Source: Spartobacteria bacterium (lineage in GTDB: Bacteria; Verrucomicrobiota; Verrucomicrobiia; Chthoniobacterales; Chthoniobacteraceae). Taken from it: a DNA stretch of 64,000 nucleotides. This document shows positions 43,546 to 55,200 of this stretch, in pieces. The stretch is taken from positions 1 through 64,000 of the forward strand of contig JAJPJG010000038.1 in NCBI GenBank assembly GCA_021324395.1, written 5' to 3'. The position numbers were made by a program, and so were the translations under genes. The stretch's first letter is position 1. Every line of letters begins with the position of its first letter. A model generated the notes under the pieces. It saw only the letters and a list, made by a program, of their open reading frames with translations, had not been told where the DNA came from and did no database searches.

Positions 43546-46500
43546 GTGTTTGCCGCCGTAAGTAAAACCAACCTTTATCGATTGTTTCGACAGTTGTTGC
43601 TCGCGCTCACCCTGTGCACGACAGCCTCAGTGCACTCCAGCACGCTTAGCTGGACCGGAGCAGCGGGCGACAGCAATGTCAGCACCGCCGGCAACTGGAG
43701 CCTCGCACAAGCGCCTGCCTCGGGCGACAGCTTGATTTTTACCGGGACAAATTCGCTCGCGCCGAAACTTTCCACCGCGTTAACGGTAAGTTCGCTTTCA
43801 TTTGCAACCAATGCATCTGCGTTTTCCCTCACGGGCACCGGCACCTACACCATCAACACGAGCTCCGGCATTACCAACAACAGTGTGAATTTGCAGACAG
43901 TTGCCAGCGCACTTGCGCTTGGCGCCAACCAGACGTGGAACGCCGCAGCCGGCGATCTCGCATTTTACGGAGCGGTAAATCTAGGTTCGCGGACGCTGAC
44001 GCTGACCGGCTCGAACAACATCACGATCAGCGGCAACATCAGCGGAACGGGCGCGATGACAAAAACCGGAACCGGTAAATTAACGCTGAGCGGCTCTAAT
44101 GCTTACAGCGGCACGACCACGTTAAGCGCCGGGACGATTGTGATCGGCAGCAATAATGCCGTTGGCACCGGCACCTTTTCGCTCGGCACGGCGAACGTGG
44201 ACGTGAGCGGCGCGCGCGCGCTTGCGAATGCAGTCACCCTCGCCGGCGACACGACATTTCTTGGTTCGGATAATTTGACGATGAGTGGTGCGGTGAGCAT
44301 CACGGGCAATCGCACACTCACCGTCAGCGGGACAGGTAAACTCACCTTCAGCGGCGTCGTTGACACGACGAAAAACAGTTACACGTGGACCAAAAGCGGT
44401 AGCGGCACGCTCGCACTGTTGGCTGCGAACACGTTTACGAAACTGAAGCTTAGCAGCGGCACATTGATTACCGGTAACGACAGCGCCCTTGGAAGCAGCA
44501 CGTTTTCGCTCGGCACCGCGACGCTGCAGGGCAACGGAAACGGCACACGCACATTCGCAAACAGTGTTACTCTGGTTGGAAATCCTACGTTCGGGGGAAC
44601 TGACGATTTGATTTTCACGGCGAGCGCGAGTCTCACCGGAAGTCGCACATTCACAATCAACAACTCGAATGTCACTTTCAGCGGCGCGATCACCGGAACC
44701 GGCTACGCACTGACAAAAAACGGCCCGGGAAACCTGATTCTCAGCGGCAATTCCGCGAATACATACACTGGAGCAACAACAGTGAATGACGGAAAACTCG
44801 TGCTCGCCAAGACCGCAGGTGTGAATGCGTTCGGCGGATCACTGGCGATCGGCGATGGCAGCGGCTATGCAGCTTCGACAATCGTGCAACTTAACGCGTC
44901 GAATCAAATCGCCGACACCACGGCGGTCACGGTCAATGCCGACGGACAACTCAATTTGCAGACTTACGCTGAGGCGATTGGAGCTTTGACAATGACCGGC
45001 GGCAGCATCATCGTCACAAACCGTCTGGACCTCGGTGGGAATGTAACCGTGAGCGCAGCGGGCACAAACTCAGCAGCAATCAGCACGAATCTCGGATTAA
45101 ACGGCGCGCGCACTTTTACGATCAACGACAACGGGTCGACAACGGACGTGGACCTGACGATTGCGGGCGTAATTTCCGATGGCAGCGTGACGAGTGCGCT
45201 TAACAAAGTCGGTTCAGGTTTCGTCGCCCTCAACGGAACGAACACCTACACCGGCGGGACAACATTGAGCGCGGGTGGTATTTCGGCGGGCACAAACAGC
45301 GCATTCGGCACCGGCACGATTTCACTTGGCGCGGCAACAATTCAATCGAGCAGTGGCGCGCGCTCTTTTAGCAATGCGTTAACACTCGCTGGCGACACCA
45401 TTTTCTCCGGCACGGATAATCTCGCCTTCAGCGGCTCCGCGGCGCTGACCGGCAATCGCACGCTGACCATCAACAACACGACGACAACATTTAGCGGCGC
45501 AATCGCGCAGGACATCGCAGGCCGCACGCTGACAAAAACCGGCGTCGGCACGCTCGCCCTTACCGGCACGGGAGCGAACACGATCACCGGCACGACGACC
45601 GTGAATGCCGGCACGCTTTTGCTCGGGAAAAATTCCGGTGCGGCGATCGGCGGCGATCTGGTAATCGGCGATGGTTCAGGCACGGATACCGTGCAGTTTT
45701 CCACAGCGAATCAGCTCGCAAGCGCCGCGAACGTGACGGTGAATGGAAGCGGTGTTTTGGATTTGAATGGAAACAACCAAGCGATTGCGTCGCTAACGCT
45801 CGGCGGCGGAGCGTTGATAACCACCGGAACCGGAGCGTTAACACTCGGCGGTGACGTGTCGCACAATGGCTCTGGCGCTCAAACCGCAACGATTTCCGGG
45901 AAAATCGATCTCGGCGGAACAACGCGCACGTTTACGGTGAACGACTCATCCGCTGCAACTGACCTGACAATTTCGGCGGTGATCTCGAACGGTGCGCTCA
46001 CGAAAACAGGCGGCGGCACGATGTTGCTTAGCGCAAGCAACAGCTACACCGGCACGACGACGATTAATGGCGGAACTTTGCAGCTCGGAGCAACAAGCGC
46101 GATCGCGAGCGCGTCATCCGTTATTTTAAATAACAGTGCGACATTTGACCTGAACGGTTTCAACGCGACGCTCGCTTCGCTCTCCGGCACAGGCAATGTC
46201 GCTCTCAGCGGCGGCACGCTTACTTTTGGCAACGGCAACTCGACTACATTTGGCGGCCCAATTTTCGGCAACGGCAGCATCATTAAAAATGGGTCGGGAA
46301 CATTTACGCTGAGCGGTAGCGCGAGTTTTACCGGCGCAACGAATGTCAACTCGGGCACGCTGCAATTCAGCGGGACAAATATCGCGCCATCGAGTTCGGC
46401 CACCACGATTGCATCCGGAGCGTCGCTGGATTTAAACAGCTTTAACGAAGTGCTCGGATCCCTTTCCGGCAGCGGAAACGTCACGCTCGGCAGCGGCTAT

Positions 46501-49500
46501 CTGACGGTCGGCGGTAACAACAGCTCGACGACATTTTCCGGAATTATCAGCGGAAGCGGCGGCTTAATCAAAACCGGCACGGGCGCGATGACCGTCACGA
46601 ATGCAAACACGTTTGATGGTTTGGTGACGATCAATGACGGCTCGCTCACGCTCAGCGGCTCGAATGCGAAGCTCGCGAGCGCATCTGCGTTTTACATCGG
46701 CAATCGCACCACGCTTACGCTCGACAACTCGACAGGCACAAACACAAACCGCATTGCCGATACCGCGGCGATTTGGTTCAACGGTGGCACGTTTGCGTTT
46801 GTCTCGGGCAGTAACGGCTCGACCGAAACGGTCGGCGCGCTGAATGCGATCGGCGGCGCATCCACTGTCTCGATTGCAAATGGTGGCACATCATCGGCAC
46901 TGACGTTTAATTCGCTCGGGACGATCGCGAGTGGTGCAACGGTGAATTTTTCCGCAAGCGGCGGCACACTCGGATCCGGTGTTGGCGGTCCGCATATTTA
47001 CGTCATCGGCCAGGCGAGTGGGTTCATGGGTGGTTGGGCGACCGTCGGCAGCAACTTCGCGGAATATTACGCCGACGGTGTGCGCGCGTTTAGCAATTAT
47101 TATACGGGCAGTGACGGCATCAATGTGAATGACGGAACAAAAGTCGTGCTGCTTTCCGGCAGTTCGCCGGGCACAGCCACGACGCTGACGAATGCGGGCA
47201 CGACGTCAAACTTGAGCCTCAGCATTTCCGACGTTTCGTCGATCGATCTCGGCACCGCGACGACACGCACCTTAAATCTCGTCAGCGGCGGATTGATCAA
47301 AAGCAGCGCGACAGCGACCACGATTTCGGGACAGGGTCGATTGACGGCCGGTGGAACTGCAACCGGTTCGCTCGCGATTTCGATCGACGCGGGCCATACG
47401 CTCAGCATCGCGTCGAGCATCATCGACAATGCGGGCGCGAATGGAACTTACGGCGATGCCGATGACGGCGTAGTCTCGCTCGCGAAAACGGATGCGGGAC
47501 TGCTCGTGCTCACCGGCTCAAATGCATTTAGCGGAAACGTCTTTGTCAATGGCGGCACGCTGCGGATCTCCGCCGAAAACAATCTGGGCGCGAATGGCAA
47601 TGACGTGATCTTCAATAGCGGCACGCTAAATGTGGCGAGTGGCTTCACTGCGAGTAGCGGCAAAATTTTCACGATTAGCTCCGACCTCACCGGCACCATT
47701 GACGTCGATGCCGGGCAAACGCTCACGCTTGCGAATGCGGCGAATGTTTTAACGAGTGGAAACGCCGCGAGCGTTCTCTACAAAAATGGTGGCGGCATCT
47801 TTGTCCTGCAGAATGCCGACACGTCGTTTACCGGCACGTTGCAGGTGAATGCCGGGGTCGCTGAGTTGCGAAACGCGCAGTCACTCGGCGGCGCGATTCT
47901 GCTCAACAGCGGGACACTTCGTTTGCGCAACGATGCCGATACAAATTTCGGAAACACCGTTTCGCTTTCCGCGGACTCCACCATCGAGGTGACGCGGTTG
48001 ACCGGCACTTCCGGCGCTGTGAATCTCACGCTCGCCAAACTTTCAGCCGGTGCAAACACGTTGACCATCACCGGCAGCAATGGCGCATCGCTGGCTTTTG
48101 GCTCCGTTAATTTGACGGCGAATACGACGTTTAACACTTCGACCGCTACCGTCTCGCTCAGCTCAATTGGCGGCGGATTCGGTTTTACAAAAACCGGCAC
48201 AAACACGCTGACGCTCAGCGGCACGAGCAGCTACACGGGCGCGACGACGATCAGCGCCGGAACCTTGAGAATCGCCGGGACGAATGCAACGTCGCCACTT
48301 TCTGCAGTGGCACTGGCTTCGGGTGCGATTTTTGATTTGAATAACTACAGCACGAAAATCGCGGTGCTTAGCGGTTCGGGCTCGATCGCGCTTGGAAGCG
48401 CAGTGCTCACCGCGGGCGATGTGAGCTCCAGCACTTTCGCAGGCGCGCTCAACGGAGCCGGTGGATTTATAAAATCGGGTGCCGGTATCCTGACTCTCGG
48501 CGGCACGTCGGGTTATTCGGGCGCAACGACGATCAGCGCCGGCACATTGCAACTGGGCACAAACAACGCGATCGCCAGCGCGTCAAACATCTCCATCGCG
48601 AACGGCGCGACTTTTGATCTGAACAATTTCAATCAAACGACGACGGTGCTGACAGGCTCTGGAAATGTAACGCTCGGCAGCGGCACGCTGACGCTCGGCA
48701 CGTCCAGTGGTTCGAGCACCTTCAGCGGCGTGCTTAGCGGAAGCGGCTCGGTTGTTAAAAACGGAACAAGCACGCTGGTTTTAAACAGCGGAAATACGCT
48801 CAGCGGCGCCATTACAATCAACGCCGGCATTCTCGACGTGGAAAACCTGTCGGCCCTCGGCGGCACGACAGGCGGAACGGTCGTCAATTCCAGCGCGGAG
48901 TTGCAGATCGGCACATCGGTCAGCGGCGAAGCGCTTACCCTAAGCGGCTCGGGCAGCAGTGCAGGTGCGCTCCACAACGTGAGCGGCACCGTCACGTGGG
49001 GCGGGCCGGTTTCGCTCGCGGCGAACAGCACGGTCGCTTCCGACGCGGGCACGCTTACGCTCAGCGGCTCCGTTTCCACCGGCGCAAACGTGCTGACGAC
49101 AACCGGCAGCGGAAACATCATCATCAGCGGCGCGATCAGCGGCTCGGCAGGGCTGGCGAAAAGCGGCACGGGCACGCTGACGTTGAGCGGATCAAATTCG
49201 TTTGGCGGAACTGTTAACGTGACTGCCGGCGTGCTTTCCGTCCAGCACAGCGCGGCTCTTGGTGCGAGCGGTGCGGGGAATGGAACCACGATCGGCAGCG
49301 GCGCGGCGGTGCAGATCAGCAACGCGAGCGGAATCAATATCGCCGGGGAAATTTTGACACTCAGCGGCGCCGGCATTGCAAACACCGGCGCGTTATCAAA
49401 TACCAGCGGGAACAACTCCTGGAGCGGCAATGTGGTGCTCGCGGCCGATTCCACGATCGGGGTCGCGCAATCGCAGGACGCGCTTACGATTTCCGGCGTA

Positions 49501-50796
49501 ATCAGCGAAAGCGGCACCGCGAGTGCACTGACAAAAGCCGGGACAGGCACGCTCGTATTTTCCGCCGCGAATACTTACAGCGGAGCGACCAACATTGTTG
49601 CGGGGACTCTGCAGCTTGCGGCCTCTGATCGCATCAACGATGCATCAGCCGTCACCATCAGCAGCGGCGCCTTGCTTGATCTGAATGATTACAACGAGAC
49701 GATCGGCTCGCTCGCAGGCGCGGGCGATGTAGACACCGGCAGCGCTACCGGCGGAACGCTGACGGTCGGCGTTAACGACCGTTCAACAACGTTTTCAGGC
49801 AACATTTCCGGCATTGGCGATGTCGTCAAAACGGGCACGGGCACCCTGACACTCACCGGCACGAACAGCACCTATTCCGGCGATACCTACGTGAATTCCG
49901 GCAAGCTCGCGATCGACAACGACGCGCGACTTGGCGCTGACGGCGGCCTCATTTTCAGCGGCGGCACATTGCTCGCGAGCGGATCGTTTACCTCAAGCCG
50001 CGTGGTTGCGGTGAATGCCGATAGCGCGATCGATACAAATGGCAACACCGTGATTCTCAGCGGCTCCCTCAGCGGCACGGCAAACCTCGCGAAGAATGGC
50101 GCGGGAACGCTGAAACTCAGCGGATCGAATGCCGGTTTTACCGGTTCATTTGCGGTGAACGGCGGAAAGCTCGCGGTTAACGCTGCGTTTACGAACAGCA
50201 CCGTCACGCTGGCTAGTGGCGCCGAACTCGATGGCAGCGGCAGCGTCAACGACGTCGCTGCAGCCAGCGGTTCAACCGTTGCTCCTGGCAATAGCGGGGC
50301 CGGACAGCTCGGCACGGGCAACTTCAACCTCGGCAGCGGCGCGCACCTTTCGATCGAGATCGGCGGCACCACGGCCGGCACGGGCTATGACGAGATAAGT
50401 GTAACCGGCTCGGTTACAATTTCCGGCGCGCTCGACGCTTCGTTCGTCAATGGCTACACGCCAACACACGTGGCGAGTTTGAGTGTTCCCTACGTGATCG
50501 GCGGTGCGAACACCACGCTCGACAAGTTTTTCATCATCATCAACGACGGCGCCGACGCAGTGAACGGCACATTTTCAAATCAAGTCATGTCGAATACCAT
50601 CTTCGGCACGCTGCCGACGATTACGTTTGGAAATCAACCGTTCGCGATCAGCTACACCGGCGACGCAGCGACCAATAGCACCATTGGCGGCAACGACATC
50701 GTCCTCACCGCGATCCCGGAGCCGAACGAGCTGACGTTCTTCGCGGGCGGAATTGCGCTGCAGATCGCATGGTTCCGCCTGCGCAAGCGCCGCTGA
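43546..50796 (+). CDS. Giant autotransporter-type beta-strand repeat surface protein with PEP-CTERM-like tail
   Basis: A GTG start at 43546 opens a 2416-residue protein with a signal peptide (LFRQLLLALTLCTTASVHS). Nearly the whole length is built from passenger-associated repeats of the kind TKTGTGTLTLSGSN-TYSGATTISAGTL, about 20-25 times, which predict a long right-handed beta-solenoid rich in Gly, Ser and Thr. There is no autotransporter barrel. Instead the last ~30 residues are IPEPNELTFFAGG, a hydrophobic span and WFRLRKRR, matching the PEP-CTERM sorting signal used with exosortase. It is thus predicted to be attached to or exported across the outer surface. The TACGTA motif upstream and the response regulator before it hint at two-component control. 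Internal repeats make misassembly possible. Confidence 0.9.
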   Translation: MFAAVSKTNLYRLFRQLLLALTLCTTASVHSSTLSWTGAAGDSNVSTAGNWSLAQAPASGDSLIFTGTNSLAPKLSTALTVSSLSFATNASAFSLTGTGTYTINTSSGITNNSVNLQTVASALALGANQTWNAAAGDLAFYGAVNLGSRTLTLTGSNNITISGNISGTGAMTKTGTGKLTLSGSNAYSGTTTLSAGTIVIGSNNAVGTGTFSLGTANVDVSGARALANAVTLAGDTTFLGSDNLTMSGAVSITGNRTLTVSGTGKLTFSGVVDTTKNSYTWTKSGSGTLALLAANTFTKLKLSSGTLITGNDSALGSSTFSLGTATLQGNGNGTRTFANSVTLVGNPTFGGTDDLIFTASASLTGSRTFTINNSNVTFSGAITGTGYALTKNGPGNLILSGNSANTYTGATTVNDGKLVLAKTAGVNAFGGSLAIGDGSGYAASTIVQLNASNQIADTTAVTVNADGQLNLQTYAEAIGALTMTGGSIIVTNRLDLGGNVTVSAAGTNSAAISTNLGLNGARTFTINDNGSTTDVDLTIAGVISDGSVTSALNKVGSGFVALNGTNTYTGGTTLSAGGISAGTNSAFGTGTISLGAATIQSSSGARSFSNALTLAGDTIFSGTDNLAFSGSAALTGNRTLTINNTTTTFSGAIAQDIAGRTLTKTGVGTLALTGTGANTITGTTTVNAGTLLLGKNSGAAIGGDLVIGDGSGTDTVQFSTANQLASAANVTVNGSGVLDLNGNNQAIASLTLGGGALITTGTGALTLGGDVSHNGSGAQTATISGKIDLGGTTRTFTVNDSSAATDLTISAVISNGALTKTGGGTMLLSASNSYTGTTTINGGTLQLGATSAIASASSVILNNSATFDLNGFNATLASLSGTGNVALSGGTLTFGNGNSTTFGGPIFGNGSIIKNGSGTFTLSGSASFTGATNVNSGTLQFSGTNIAPSSSATTIASGASLDLNSFNEVLGSLSGSGNVTLGSGYLTVGGNNSSTTFSGIISGSGGLIKTGTGAMTVTNANTFDGLVTINDGSLTLSGSNAKLASASAFYIGNRTTLTLDNSTGTNTNRIADTAAIWFNGGTFAFVSGSNGSTETVGALNAIGGASTVSIANGGTSSALTFNSLGTIASGATVNFSASGGTLGSGVGGPHIYVIGQASGFMGGWATVGSNFAEYYADGVRAFSNYYTGSDGINVNDGTKVVLLSGSSPGTATTLTNAGTTSNLSLSISDVSSIDLGTATTRTLNLVSGGLIKSSATATTISGQGRLTAGGTATGSLAISIDAGHTLSIASSIIDNAGANGTYGDADDGVVSLAKTDAGLLVLTGSNAFSGNVFVNGGTLRISAENNLGANGNDVIFNSGTLNVASGFTASSGKIFTISSDLTGTIDVDAGQTLTLANAANVLTSGNAASVLYKNGGGIFVLQNADTSFTGTLQVNAGVAELRNAQSLGGAILLNSGTLRLRNDADTNFGNTVSLSADSTIEVTRLTGTSGAVNLTLAKLSAGANTLTITGSNGASLAFGSVNLTANTTFNTSTATVSLSSIGGGFGFTKTGTNTLTLSGTSSYTGATTISAGTLRIAGTNATSPLSAVALASGAIFDLNNYSTKIAVLSGSGSIALGSAVLTAGDVSSSTFAGALNGAGGFIKSGAGILTLGGTSGYSGATTISAGTLQLGTNNAIASASNISIANGATFDLNNFNQTTTVLTGSGNVTLGSGTLTLGTSSGSSTFSGVLSGSGSVVKNGTSTLVLNSGNTLSGAITINAGILDVENLSALGGTTGGTVVNSSAELQIGTSVSGEALTLSGSGSSAGALHNVSGTVTWGGPVSLAANSTVASDAGTLTLSGSVSTGANVLTTTGSGNIIISGAISGSAGLAKSGTGTLTLSGSNSFGGTVNVTAGVLSVQHSAALGASGAGNGTTIGSGAAVQISNASGINIAGEILTLSGAGIANTGALSNTSGNNSWSGNVVLAADSTIGVAQSQDALTISGVISESGTASALTKAGTGTLVFSAANTYSGATNIVAGTLQLAASDRINDASAVTISSGALLDLNDYNETIGSLAGAGDVDTGSATGGTLTVGVNDRSTTFSGNISGIGDVVKTGTGTLTLTGTNSTYSGDTYVNSGKLAIDNDARLGADGGLIFSGGTLLASGSFTSSRVVAVNADSAIDTNGNTVILSGSLSGTANLAKNGAGTLKLSGSNAGFTGSFAVNGGKLAVNAAFTNSTVTLASGAELDGSGSVNDVAAASGSTVAPGNSGAGQLGTGNFNLGSGAHLSIEIGGTTAGTGYDEISVTGSVTISGALDASFVNGYTPTHVASLSVPYVIGGANTTLDKFFIIINDGADAVNGTFSNQVMSNTIFGTLPTITFGNQPFAISYTGDAATNSTIGGNDIVLTAIPEPNELTFFAGGIALQIAWFRLRKRR

Positions 50797-50797
50797 T

Positions 50798-51046
50798 CTA
50801 ACCCTCGATCGTGTTGATCTCGACGGGCTCGACTTTGACGCCGAGCTCCTCGAGCCAGGCGATCGATTTTTTGATTTCCCCGCGCTCGCCGTCGAGCTCG
50901 ATGGAGACGATGCCGACCTCGGCAGTGACGCTGGCTTGGCGGACGTTTGTCACCACGTTAAACTTGTGGCCGAGCTCGTAGATGATGGGCCGCGTGATGA
51001 GTCGCGCGGGGAACATGAGCCAGAGGCGGGATTTTTCGGCAGCCAT
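50798..51046 (-). CDS. NIL-domain protein, methionine-linked
   Basis: The 82-residue protein is a single ferredoxin-like NIL domain (RLWLMFPARLITRPIIYELG, NVRQASVTAEVGIVSIELDG, LEELGVKVEPVEI). NIL domains occur at the end of the methionine importer ATPase MetN, where they sense methionine, and with homocysteine-forming systems. It is the last gene of the riboswitch-controlled operon, 45 bp after the carrier-protein gene. It could bind methionine as a feedback sensor. It lacks iron-sulfur cysteines, so it is not the ferredoxin fusion known in archaea. Confidence 0.88.
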   Translation of the reverse strand: MAAEKSRLWLMFPARLITRPIIYELGHKFNVVTNVRQASVTAEVGIVSIELDGERGEIKKSIAWLEELGVKVEPVEINTIEG

Positions 51047-51091
51047 GGGCGAAGTGTCGAAGGACGAAGCGCGTGTGTCGAGGGCTTTTGA

Positions 51092-51364
51092 CTAGCCGCC
51101 GGCGATGGCGGGGACGATGGAGATTTCGTCGGTTTCTTTTACAGCCGTGGCTTTTTCCTCCAGAAAACGAATGTCCTCATCGTTGATGAACACGTTCACG
51201 AAACGGCGAATGTTGCCGCTCTCGTCGCAGATGCGCTCTTTCAAGCCGGGATAGCTCTTGTCGAGATCGGCGAGAATTTCCTCGATGCTCGAGCCGGAAG
51301 CGCTGACAACTTCCTGCTCGCGGGTGAGTTTGCGGAGTGGAGTGGGAATGCGGATGTTTGGCAT
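51092..51364 (-). CDS. MoaD/ThiS-family sulfur carrier protein
   Basis: This 90-residue beta-grasp protein (NIRIPTPLRKLTREQEVV, then VNVFINDEDIRFLEEKAT) ends directly in Gly-Gly (IVPAIAGG), the tail that is adenylated by an E1-like enzyme and then loaded with sulfur as a thiocarboxylate. It lies 11 bp after the threonine-synthase-like gene. Similar carriers (CysO, HcyS) supply sulfide for cysteine or homocysteine synthesis. The activating enzyme is not in this operon. Confidence 0.9.
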   Translation of the reverse strand: MPNIRIPTPLRKLTREQEVVSASGSSIEEILADLDKSYPGLKERICDESGNIRRFVNVFINDEDIRFLEEKATAVKETDEISIVPAIAGG

Positions 51365-51375
51365 ATTTGTGTTTG

Positions 51376-52638
51376 TTAAATGGTTGCTTGCAGTTCTTCG
51401 CGCACGAGCTCTTCAAATTCGCGCAGGCTCGGCTTGATCGTGCGCGCCTCGCCGCATTTACCGATGATGGCTTCCTGCGTTTTTAAGCCGTTGCCGGTGA
51501 TGCAGAGCACGATGCTTTCTTCGCGTGGAATCGCGCCGGACTCGATCAATTTTTGCGCGCACGCGACGGTCACGCCGCCGGCGGTTTCGGCAAAAATGCC
51601 TTCGTGACTCGCGAGCAGACGAATGCCTTCAACGATTTCATCATCGTTTACGTCCTCGGCGCTGCCGCCGGTTTCGTTCATCGCGTGAATCGCATAATAG
51701 CCGTCGGCCGGTGTGCCGATTGCGAGCGATTTCGCGATCGTCTGCGGCTTCGGCACCGGCTTCACGATGTCGGTGCCTTTTTTCTTCGCAGTGCTGATCG
51801 GCGAACAGCCGCTCGCCTGCGCACCGTGCATGGCGAATGGCGTTTTCTCGACAAGCCCGAGTGTGGCGAACTCGTTGTAAGCCTTGCAAATTTTTGTCAA
51901 AAGCGAGCCGCTCGCCATCGGCACAACCGTGTGCTGCGGCAAACGCCAGCCGAGCTGCTCGGCGATCTCGAAGCCCATCGACTTCGAGCCTTCGGCGTAA
52001 TACGGACGCAGGTTCACATTGACGAAACCCCAGCCGTATTTGCCCGCGATTTCGGAGCAAAGGCGATTGACCTGATCGTAAGGCCCGTGGATGCCGATCA
52101 CGTTCGTGCCGTAAACGAGCGATCCGAGCACTTTGCCCTGCTCGAGATCGGCGGGAATCAGCACGTAGCTGGTAAGGCCGGCGCTCGCGGCGTTTGCGGC
52201 GACGGAGTTCGCGAGATTTCCGGTCGATGCGCACGCGACGATTTTGAAACCCATCTCTTTCGCGCGGCTCAGCGCCACGCTCACGACGCGATCTTTAAAA
52301 GACAGCGTCGGATAATTGACCGTATCGTTTTTGACGTAGAGCTCTTTGACGCCGAGGGCCTGCGCAAGCCGGTCGGCTTTGACCAAAGGCGTGAATCCGA
52401 CCTGCGTTCCGACAGTCGGTGCGCCGTCGATCGGCAGCAGCTCGCGGTAACGCCACATCGATTGCGGACGCGATTGGATTTCCGTGCGCGTGAGCACCGG
52501 ACGGATCGCATCGTAATCGTAAGCCGCCTCGAGCGGCCCGAAATCGAAATCGCAAACATGCACCGCTTCCTTCGGGTAAGCGCGTCCGCACTCGCGGCAC
52601 TTGAGGTGCGTAAAATAAGGGCTCGAATTTTTGTCCAT
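51376..52638 (-). CDS. thrC: Threonine-synthase-family PLP enzyme under SAM riboswitch control
   Basis: The 420-residue protein starts with a zinc-ribbon-like KCRECGRAYP...C (Cys14, Cys17, Cys29), then a fold-type II PLP domain: the Schiff-base Lys115 in YPTLSFKDRVV, the phosphate loop ASTGNLANSVA, and GSGSLL-type MASGSLLTKI. By sequence it would convert O-phosphohomoserine to threonine. Context argues for a different or extra role. It heads an operon with a thiocarboxylate-type carrier and a NIL-domain protein, behind a SAM-I riboswitch that should switch off when SAM is plentiful. A beta/gamma-replacement by sulfide on an activated homoserine would give homocysteine. Whether another thrC exists in the genome is not known from this window. 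Confidence 0.85.
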   Translation of the reverse strand: MDKNSSPYFTHLKCRECGRAYPKEAVHVCDFDFGPLEAAYDYDAIRPVLTRTEIQSRPQSMWRYRELLPIDGAPTVGTQVGFTPLVKADRLAQALGVKELYVKNDTVNYPTLSFKDRVVSVALSRAKEMGFKIVACASTGNLANSVAANAASAGLTSYVLIPADLEQGKVLGSLVYGTNVIGIHGPYDQVNRLCSEIAGKYGWGFVNVNLRPYYAEGSKSMGFEIAEQLGWRLPQHTVVPMASGSLLTKICKAYNEFATLGLVEKTPFAMHGAQASGCSPISTAKKKGTDIVKPVPKPQTIAKSLAIGTPADGYYAIHAMNETGGSAEDVNDDEIVEGIRLLASHEGIFAETAGGVTVACAQKLIESGAIPREESIVLCITGNGLKTQEAIIGKCGEARTIKPSLREFEELVREELQATI

Positions 52639-52698
52639 AAATCAAGCTCCGATCGAGAGTGCCGACGAGGAAGGGGAAGGTGCGACGGTGCGCAAATT

Positions 52699-52850
52699 CC
52701 TCTCATCTTTTCCCGCAGGTCATTTCATTTTATTGAAACGAACTGTGGGCTGGATTTGGCACCTGGTCCCCGACGCTTCGTTCTCACGAAACATCGAGCG
52801 GTTGCCGTGACTTCAACGGGCCAGTCCCTCAGTCACTCTCGATAAGAGTG
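52699..52850 (-). promoter_or_regulatory. SAM-I (S-box) riboswitch
   Basis: On the minus strand the RNA begins CTCTTATCGAGAGTGACTGA, then GGGACTGGCCCGTTGAAGTC, ACGGCAACC, CCAGGTGCCAAATCC, and closes with GATGAGAG, which pairs with CTCTTATC to form P1. These are the conserved core elements of SAM-I: the kink-turn and pseudoknot strand GGCCC/CAACC, the GGTGCCAA J-region and P1. The start codon of the PLP enzyme lies 61 bases after P1. No terminator hairpin with a T run is visible in that space, so control at translation (GGAG site) is more likely than at transcription. Confidence 0.95.
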
Positions 52851-52855
52851 CGGGG

Positions 52856-52884
52856 AAATTAGGCGCGGCCCGGCGCAGCGTCAA
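52856..52884 (-). promoter_or_regulatory. Sigma70-type promoter for the riboswitch operon
   Basis: On the minus strand TTGACG (52884-52879) and TAATTT (52861-52856) are separated by exactly 17 bp. The transcript would start within a few bases of the riboswitch P1 stem, which supports both calls. Confidence 0.75.
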
Positions 52885-52954: not shown

Positions 52955-53030
52955 TGGAGCCAACGACGGGATTCGAACCCGTGACCTGCTGATTACGAAT
53001 CAGCTGCTCTACCAGCTGAGCTACGTTGGC
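52955..53030 (-). tRNA. tRNA-Thr(CGT), intact
   Basis: Reading from 53030, GCCAACG acceptor strand, D-arm AGCTCAGCTGGTAGAGC, anticodon arm GCTGA-TTCGTAA-TCAGC (anticodon CGT), T-arm GTTCGAATCCC, then CGTTGGC, T and encoded CCA. All stems pair. A degraded copy of its 5' half lies in the same orientation at 57953-57976, marking this gene as an integration site. Confidence 0.97.
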
Positions 53031-53714: not shown

Positions 53715-53903
53715 TTACACCTCAGTCCTATGTCCCTCCGCGTCATACTCGTAAGTTTTCCCATCAACTTCACCAGCCACCTTTTTATGTGATCCGTCAC
53801 AGTAGGGCTGGTTCTTCGACAAGCCACACATGCAAATCCAGACGGATTTCTCCTGGGGTTTGATTTCGAGAGGTTGATTGGCGGTTCTCAGCACTTTTCT
53901 CAT
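53715..53903 (-). CDS. CDGSH iron-sulfur domain protein
   Basis: The start at 53903 (MRKVLRTANQPLEIK) matches the family; an ATG 39 bases earlier is possible. The 62-residue protein has one complete CDGSH motif, CMCGLSKNQPYCDGSHKK, with the three Cys and one His that hold a 2Fe-2S cluster. Small single-CDGSH proteins are electron-transfer or redox-sensing proteins of uncertain partner. It lies 11 bp from the AP2-like pseudogene. As island cargo it may pair with the desaturase downstream, which needs electrons, but this is only an idea. Confidence 0.9.
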   Translation of the reverse strand: MRKVLRTANQPLEIKPQEKSVWICMCGLSKNQPYCDGSHKKVAGEVDGKTYEYDAEGHRTEV

Positions 53904-54099
53904 GCACGAGATCTGACCGCATCTATCTGTGAATGCGAGCACATTTAGTGTTTCGATGGATATTCACATTCAAGAGCACAATTCAACTTTGGCCTCTCCC
54001 GACAATACTGCGAGCTTTCGGCTGGATGTGTGTTATTGTCTCTGCAACTTACCGATTCAGAAGGCGAGAGTGCATCTGTAGCTGGCAAGATCCAACATT

Positions 54100-55200
54100 A
54101 TGAAATTCCGCATCCCCTTCGATCGCGTCCACTGGGAGACAAGCATATTCCTGATCGGGACCCTCTTTCTTACGCTCACCGCAGTGCCGCTTTATCTTTG
54201 GCACTATGGCCTGGACTGGTTTCAGATTGGCTTATTCTGGGTAATGTTCCTGTGCACCGGATTCAGCATCACCTTGGGATATCACCGTCTATTTTCTCAC
54301 CTCTCTTTTAAGAGCCATTGGAGTGTTCGCTTGTTCACACTTATTTTTGGTGCGGCCGCATTCGAGAATTCAGCGTTGATGTGGGCCTCTGAGCATCGAC
54401 GGCATCACAAACATGTCGATCATGACGATGATCCTTATGATATCAGCAAAGGTTTTTTTCATGCTCATATCGGCTGGCTCTTGTTTAAGTTGAAAGTTCA
54501 ACCGCCATACGATAACGTTGCCGACCTTCAGAGAGATCCTTTGGTGCGATGGCAGAACCGCTGGGTGCAAGTCATCGCAGTGGTGGTTAGTTTCATCTTT
54601 CCAACCGTTCTTGGCTGGATGTGGAATGGGGCGGCGGGAGCACTCGGCGCGTTTCTAATTGGAGGTGTAGCACGGGTAGTCTTCCTCCAGCACTGCACAT
54701 TTTTCATCAATTCCGCCTGTCACACCATTGGCAACCAGCCATACTCAACCCGCTGCTCCGCACGGGATAGTTGGATCATGGCCCTATTTACCTTCGGCGA
54801 GGGTTATCACAATTATCATCACGAGTTTCAGCACGACTATCGCAATGGCGTAGGGCGCTGGCAGTTTGATCCGACAAAATGGACCATTTGGATGCTGCAC
54901 AAGCTTGGGCTGGCCCAAAGCCTACGACGTGTTCCATCTGAAAAAATCCTTCTTGCACAACTCGGCGAAACCCAGCGGCGTGTGGAAGCAAGCCTTGCCA
55001 CTGTGAGCACCAGTGACGCAGCGCATAGTCTGCTCGTCCGAATCTATGAGCGACTTCAGTCAATCGCAATGAAGTGGGATCAGTATCGTTTAAAGCAAAT
55101 CGAAGTGACCCGTGAGATGCTGAAATCTCTCCGGCACGAATTAAGAGCAGTAATTAGCGAACTGAAAACTCTCGATCTTCCGGCACGCACAGCAACGTAA
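54100..55200 (+). CDS. Acyl-CoA desaturase (delta-9 type, membrane di-iron)
   Basis: This 366-residue membrane protein has the three histidine boxes of stearoyl-CoA desaturases: HRLFSH (62-67), HRRHH (99-103) and HNYHH (237-241), with four membrane helices around them. It introduces a double bond into saturated acyl chains, using O2 and an electron donor. The last ~90 residues form a helical tail (YERLQSIAMKWDQYRLKQIEV) not needed for catalysis. The stop is 20 bp before the next gene. It is in the island and AT-richer than core genes. Confidence 0.95.
   Translation: MKFRIPFDRVHWETSIFLIGTLFLTLTAVPLYLWHYGLDWFQIGLFWVMFLCTGFSITLGYHRLFSHLSFKSHWSVRLFTLIFGAAAFENSALMWASEHRRHHKHVDHDDDPYDISKGFFHAHIGWLLFKLKVQPPYDNVADLQRDPLVRWQNRWVQVIAVVVSFIFPTVLGWMWNGAAGALGAFLIGGVARVVFLQHCTFFINSACHTIGNQPYSTRCSARDSWIMALFTFGEGYHNYHHEFQHDYRNGVGRWQFDPTKWTIWMLHKLGLAQSLRRVPSEKILLAQLGETQRRVEASLATVSTSDAAHSLLVRIYERLQSIAMKWDQYRLKQIEVTREMLKSLRHELRAVISELKTLDLPARTAT

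Follow-up and report, generated by a model that had tools for sequence, protein, structure and literature searches.

Carrier-protein thiocarboxylates furnish the sulfur in several described routes to cysteine and homocysteine, and here we describe a three-gene operon that very probably belongs to one of them, in the first 64,000 nucleotides of contig JAJPJG010000038.1 (assembly GCA_021324395.1) of a Spartobacteria bacterium of the Verrucomicrobiota; this entire stretch is called the window below. In the mycobacterial CysM/CysO system, a pyridoxal 5′-phosphate (PLP) enzyme of the same fold type as that of the window uses a phosphorylated amino acid, O-phosphoserine, and a carrier thiocarboxylate to give cysteine, in a route that also includes the Mec+ protease. 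In the HcyS/MetY system of Wolinella succinogenes, the carrier thiocarboxylate is the sulfur source for homocysteine, with MetY, a member of the PF01053 family, acting on an acyl-homoserine. Closest to the operon is the MetM/MetO system of Streptomyces, in which, from the 2024 work of Hasebe and colleagues, thiocarboxylated MetO is said to be the sulfur donor. According to PMC12172450, with reference to Hasebe, Adachi, Maruyama and Hamano 2024, MetM is a homocysteine synthase acting on O-phosphohomoserine; in Streptomyces albulus metM has an upstream S-adenosylmethionine (SAM) riboswitch, and metO is named as the sulfur-carrier gene. A NIL-domain protein likewise participates in homocysteine synthesis by the route comprising DUF39 and a NIL/ferredoxin protein; as described in PMC5764234, the NIL domain of that route is joined to a ferredoxin, and homoserine is not an intermediate.

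The operon of the window comprises the following elements:

52848-52700, minus strand: SAM-I (S box) riboswitch aptamer in the operon leader (Rfam RF00162, 73.8 bits)
52639..52699, minus strand: leader stretch from aptamer to start codon, with a 10-base complementarity to the 5′ side of the aptamer
52638-51376, minus strand: MetM-like PLP enzyme of the threonine synthase family, 420 amino acids (PALP, TIGR00260, tree, Foldseek)
51364-51092, minus strand: MetO-like sulfur carrier of the ThiS/MoaD type, 90 amino acids, C-terminal Gly-Gly (ThiS, SAMP1 model, alignment)
51046-50798, minus strand: stand-alone NIL-domain protein, 82 amino acids (NIL match, predicted fold, co-occurrence)

The spacings between aptamer, enzyme, carrier and NIL genes are, in that order, 61, 11 and 45 bases, which would allow all three genes to be cotranscribed. 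This layout, a full SAM-I aptamer followed by a threonine-synthase-family PLP enzyme, a MoaD/ThiS-like protein ending in GG and a NIL-domain protein, had been put forward in an earlier note made from the letters of the window alone, and the profile searches bear it out for each element. The same note had supposed that the “ThrC” of this operon serves homocysteine synthesis in a variant independent of MetY. A route of this kind is in print as MetM/MetO (PMC12172450), and gene content, recurrence and phylogeny lend the homocysteine assignment good support. Judging from sequence, the operon very probably encodes a homocysteine synthase system of the MetM/MetO type whose expression SAM-I governs; the mechanism is already published for another phylum, and the window would hold a verrucomicrobial member. 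As far as the S. albulus system is set out in the available text, it shares with the window the upstream SAM riboswitch, the threonine-synthase-like enzyme, the adjacent sulfur-carrier gene and the O-phosphohomoserine substrate (predicted for the window), and differs from it in phylum and in the window's third gene, that for the NIL protein.

The riboswitch match scores 73.8 bits against a Rfam gathering score of 44.4 (E 2e-15), and it is the sole RF00162 match in the source assembly. We surveyed a first sample of 38 genomes, the source genome included, of which 28 carry the MetM-like enzyme and 10 lack it; 27 of the 28 enzymes are near full-length with at least 72% identity to that of the window and one is cut by a contig end (the match in G017 has a stop codon counted inside it), while the remaining matches in the 38 genomes reach at most 42%. 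The neighborhood recurs behind SAM-I in the Verrucomicrobiota, a point that the earlier note had marked for checking: the riboswitch lies upstream of the enzyme in 25 of the 28 genomes, the carrier gene adjoins it in 25 and the NIL gene in 17, all 17 falling within the 25 loci that have at least 900 bases downstream. The loci without a detected riboswitch are L031, at a contig edge, and L035 and L039, where none is found upstream even at E <= 1; those without an adjacent carrier are L041, at a contig end, L022 and L028; provided that G246 and G021 are one assembly, which their identical coordinates suggest, the L022 carrier lies next to the NIL gene at another site (L147, L163). SAM-I also precedes the enzyme in 7 of the 10 enzyme-bearing genomes of a phylum-wide sample (194 genomes; enzyme at E <= 1e-100, NIL at E <= 1e-4), and a simple SAM-I pattern occurs at at least 43 of 48 named-genome loci, a lower bound in that the pattern misses 4 of 25 Rfam-confirmed sites. 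At the six comparison loci examined, including the source genome's canonical thrC locus (L002), SAM-I was not found. Outside the phylum, a locus of Nonomuraea gerenzanensis (L044) shows the same order, with SAM-I at 68.7 bits, the enzyme at 56.1% and the carrier at 51.1% identity; the gene after its carrier is GroEL-like by eye, and a search of the Nonomuraea record with the NIL protein gave no match.

The carrier matches ThiS at 63 bits and the SAMP1 model at 60.5 bits (cut-off 60), ends in ...AIAGG, and shares its C-terminal GG with all 11 aligned carriers, that of Nonomuraea among them. For its loading, the source genome encodes a 405-amino-acid protein of the MoeB/MoeZ-type E1 class, combining ThiF and rhodanese domains, which could place sulfur on the carrier; one further ThiF match in the genome is weaker, at 52.9 bits.

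The enzyme matches PALP at 223.9 bits and the TIGR00260 “thrC” model at 285.9 bits, well over the cut-off of 167.1, and its predicted fold finds a threonine synthase as best Foldseek match, the closest solved structures also being threonine synthases; the AlphaFold model is modest (predicted local distance difference test, pLDDT, 74.1; predicted template modeling score 0.75), many structure matches have a large root-mean-square deviation, and the model was used for the fold match alone. These matches would also suit a second, SAM-regulated threonine synthase to which the neighboring carrier and NIL genes have no functional tie. Since the Nonomuraea protein also exceeds the TIGR00260 cut-off (270.2 bits), that model cannot separate MetM-type enzymes from ThrC. 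A tree of 69 proteins does so: 56 MetM-type sequences, Nonomuraea's included, are monophyletic with respect to 13 ThrC-type ones (support 0.991), the groups having been set beforehand as over or under 50% identity to the window enzyme, twelve of the 13 coming from relatives and the other being encoded on a haloarchaeal plasmid, and some genomes being represented twice. Twelve alignment positions are conserved differently, in at least 95% of the MetM-type and at least 75% of the ThrC-type proteins, so the window enzyme departs at 12 positions from residues conserved in the sampled ThrC. Among them, Tyr214 of the MetM type stands where 12 of the 13 ThrC-type proteins have Arg, and FKDR-VV replaces the FKDR-GM of ThrC; at position 145 Nonomuraea carries the ThrC residue. 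The Arg in question aligns with residue 160 of Thermus ThrC, as placed from an alignment, a residue that binds the substrate phosphate.

The second-threonine-synthase reading fares poorly on genomic grounds too. The source genome has a canonical thrC on another contig, directly after homoserine dehydrogenase (hom-thrC, L069), so that the search for a second thrC suggested by the earlier note returned one; the carrier is adjacent both in the 25 of 28 genomes and in Nonomuraea; and control of threonine synthesis by SAM would make little sense. The distribution of the MetX-like gene, given below, runs opposite to that of the enzyme, which fits methionine and not threonine. In its favor, some enzyme-bearing genomes have no second ThrC-type match, and a homologue from Microcystis formed threonine when assayed in vitro (PMC12172450). 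We regard this alternative as improbable and rejected it on the separate hom-thrC pair, the carrier adjacency, the anti-correlation with MetX and the differing positions.

As side observations on this family, a further ThrC-like group with 32-35% identity (L042, L043, L182, L183) is found in some genomes, and haloarchaeal plasmids, including a Salinigranum plasmid (L045), bear a “thrC” of about 36-38% identity, with no carrier gene annotated alongside in L045. An Aliarcobacter cibarius plasmid (NZ_CP043858.1) has ThrC-like and MoaD/ThiS genes about 8 kb apart.

The methionine genes of the source genome and its relatives are consistent with the enzyme supplying homocysteine. The earlier note had also called for a search for metY/metB/metZ and for metX or homoserine kinase. 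The source genome has a homoserine kinase (thrB, 190.4 bits against a cut-off of 168.25) and two homocysteine-methyltransferase-family genes (PF02574) over cut-off, no MetX match at E <= 0.001 in a search that covered MetX and not MetA, and no PF01053 enzyme (MetB/MetC/MetY/MetZ) over the cut-off of 27, the best of three weak matches scoring 23.8 bits. A sole thrC accompanied by a normal metY/metB route, which that note had named as fatal to its proposal, is not what this genome contains. Across the first sample, a MetX-like gene (323 to 355 bits) occurs in 2 of the 28 genomes with the enzyme versus 8 of the 10 without it (Fisher p 3.7e-5), and a PF01053 match of at least 300 bits in 6 of 28 versus 8 of 10 (Fisher p 0.0019), p values that treat related genomes as independent and are hence optimistic; counted at any strength, MetX matches at E <= 0.001 are present in 16 of the 38 genomes, and PF01053 exceeds its family cut-off in 26.

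The same survey bears on two further alternatives. An enzyme forming cysteine or cysteate from O-phosphoserine, in the manner of CysM/CysO or cysteate synthase, could be entertained because CysM is a PLP enzyme of the same fold type that uses a carrier thiocarboxylate, and because cysteate synthase is a relative of ThrC to whose model, TIGR03844, the window enzyme has a weak match. That match, at 73.1 bits versus a cut-off of 324.9, lies far under threshold, as do those to cysteine synthase models; the SAM-I control and the complementarity with the MetX-like gene (cysteine genes lay outside the survey) also speak against it. We rejected this very improbable option on these three grounds. A Wolinella-like HcyS/MetY route, or the DUF39/NIL route of methanogens and Desulfovibrio, in which the ThrC-like gene would have no part, would account for a carrier and a NIL domain, the former a feature of the HcyS route and the latter of the DUF39 route (PMC5764234 for DUF39). 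The source genome has no PF01053 protein over cut-off on which a MetY could rest, DUF39 (PF01837) is absent from all 38 genomes, the source and 37 relatives, in a search whose controls were positive in 3 of 14 genomes, and the NIL protein of the window has neither a ferredoxin part nor a cysteine; we consequently set both routes aside as scarcely credible.

Several observations weigh against a MetM/MetO-type assignment and temper it. In the Microcystis work (PMC12172450), the homologue is 51.6% identical to MetM, adjoins a metO-like gene and lacks a SAM riboswitch. It converted O-phosphohomoserine to threonine and also deaminated threonine, gave no more with sulfide than an unidentified peak close to methionine, and is held by the authors to be not fully functional as MetM in cells. 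The S. albulus MetM lies outside our tree, so that orthology to it is bridged by Nonomuraea only. The source assembly (3.68 Mb, 58 contigs) is 91.5% complete, and a single absence in it is not proof; moreover, the curated cut-off of the MetX model, 500 bits, lies above every MetX match and was not attained in the control genomes either. Two enzyme-bearing genomes, G002 and G033, have a MetX-like gene nonetheless, and G033 also has a MetY over its model's cut-off. A second ThrC-type match is missing from enzyme-bearing G021 of the first sample and, at E <= 1e-30, from 8 of the 21 enzyme-bearing genomes of the NIL search described below (G228, G233, G236, G242, G245, G246, G248 and G249, of which G246 appears to be the same assembly as G021); such genomes may have absent assembly parts, a distant ThrC, or one enzyme for both jobs, and in some lineages the MetM-type enzyme may thus have a dual role.

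The remaining PF01053 proteins of the sample are of mixed kinds. The six enzyme-bearing genomes with a match of at least 300 bits are G026 and, with their PF01053 proteins scanned against the finer models, G005, G016, G027, G033 and G036. Those of enzyme-bearing G027 and G036 best match cystathionine gamma-synthase/lyase models, just or well under cut-off, as does, also under cut-off, that of G030, which lacks the enzyme; these proteins could run in either direction. The gene preceding the PF01053 gene resembles cystathionine beta-synthase in G026, G027, G030 (by eye) and G036, and the G036 neighbor, the one scanned, has PALP plus CBS domains. Proteins resembling methionine gamma-lyase, under the model cut-offs, occur in G005 and G016; partial matches of 79 and 109 bits in enzyme-bearing G010 and G012; G028 has a MetX-like gene with a PF01053 match of 135 bits only; and G015, 89% complete, has neither system.

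We propose that in this operon the carrier would be adenylated at its C-terminal Gly-Gly and converted to the thiocarboxylate, probably by the MoeB/MoeZ-type E1-rhodanese protein of the genome, while homoserine kinase would provide O-phosphohomoserine as the substrate of the MetM-like enzyme. On its PLP the enzyme would eliminate the phosphate and add the carrier sulfur at C-gamma, and, from the published system and the chemistry, the resulting acyl-carrier adduct would be hydrolyzed to homocysteine, which a homocysteine methyltransferase would turn into methionine. SAM would switch the operon off via the riboswitch, so that the thiol branch stops and the separate hom-thrC threonine branch is untouched. 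If correct, this would explain how methionine is made in many Chthoniobacterales and related bacteria that have neither a MetX-like gene nor a PF01053 enzyme; because the NCBI threonine-synthase model passes MetM-type enzymes, genome-based predictions may miss this route to methionine.

How the riboswitch might act is less clear from the leader. The sequence CACTCTCGAT of the leader is able to pair with ATCGAGAGTG of the aptamer 5′ side and ends 14 bases before the start codon; this 10-base complementarity has a p of 0.075 against mononucleotide shuffles at the window locus, which is not among the 11 of 26 loci with p < 0.05. A translational switch via anti-sequester pairing is accordingly a suggestive possibility, a guess on weak evidence. 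A transcription terminator was considered and rejected, the scan giving no terminator-like site on the minus strand. The promoter claimed in the earlier note, TTGACG-17-TAATTT, is present as a sequence; with 8 of 12 consensus letters it is weak and went unreported by a scan with a threshold of 9. Separately, a tRNA-Thr gene (anticodon CGT; 52955-53030, minus strand) shares the strand of the SAM-I leader and lies immediately 5′ of it.

The third gene is the less familiar part of the system and worth following. Its product matches NIL at 44.1 bits (cut-off 24) and consists of the NIL domain alone. The predicted fold (pLDDT 87.1) matches the C-terminal C2/NIL domain of MetN (3tuz, 7.2e-6; 3dhw, 2.4e-5; 3dhx, 4.6e-5), which in that ATP-binding cassette transporter senses methionine; the window protein is similar in fold, and it stands alone at 82 amino acids, outside a transporter and without the ATPase domain to which NIL is joined in MetN. 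In the phylum-wide sample the NIL protein is found in 7 and the enzyme in 10 of the 194 genomes; all seven NIL genomes carry the enzyme, and the three genes are neighbors in every one of them (Fisher p 6.5e-11, relatedness ignored, most of the seven coming from one family).

Among named genomes, the best 80 of 268 related stretches come from Spartobacteria/Chthoniobacterales and other Verrucomicrobiota, with a few titles giving another or no group. The enzyme is present at 55 of these 80 NIL loci and the carrier at 60; both occur at 54 and neither at 19, and enzyme, carrier and NIL stand in line at 50. Chthoniobacter flavus Ellin428 (L101) has this in-line order. Twenty-two of the 25 loci without the enzyme were taken for a whole-genome search, leaving out L080, L132 and L145, at which the carrier is present and the contig stops no more than 450 bases from NIL. 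In 21 of the 22 genomes, all but G241, a MetM-type enzyme lies elsewhere, nearly complete in 20 and truncated at a contig end in one. At four of the 22 loci (L094, L142, L152 and L156) the sequence breaks off some 500 bases or less upstream of NIL, so these are perhaps not truly detached, and the L152 genome has a second NIL copy adjoining its enzyme (L123/L180). No SAM-I is nearby in the 12 loci of detached NIL genes examined. At three of the 22 (L130, L147 and L153) carrier and NIL lie together away from the enzyme, a hint that NIL works with the carrier too.

The match of its predicted fold to the MetN regulatory domain suggests that the NIL protein senses methionine. The simplest reading, which we put forward tentatively, takes it for a lineage-specific extra through which methionine feeds back on the enzyme or the carrier, the protein most likely being a methionine-binding subunit that acts on one or the other. 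It is similarly conceivable, though short of an even chance, that the MetM/MetO system of Verrucomicrobiota has in this free-standing MetN-type methionine-binding domain a third, dedicated protein that regulates the enzyme or the carrier; control would in that case act on two levels, with SAM addressing the RNA and methionine the protein. Alternatively, by analogy with the NIL/ferredoxin protein of the DUF39 route, it might serve in docking. As a small protein, it is a candidate feedback regulator of a thiocarboxylate pathway that lends itself to testing. A literature search, thin on subscription journals and without Hasebe et al. 2024, returned no paper pairing a NIL protein with MetM or thrC; a text search of the accessible part of PMC1779556, on ThiS/MoaD gene neighborhoods, gave neither threonine synthase nor NIL, and the available portions of PMC11237513, PMC13257386 and PMC12452182 hold nothing relevant to such a pairing.

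Of the surrounding genes, a 2416-amino-acid open reading frame (43546-50796, plus strand) is convergent with the operon and ends 1 base from the NIL stop codon; it has 15 stretches of PF12951 autotransporter passenger repeats and a C-terminal tail resembling, by eye, a PEP-CTERM sorting signal. On the other side lie genes for a small CDGSH iron-binding protein (53715-53942, minus strand) and a fatty-acid desaturase (54100-55200, plus strand).

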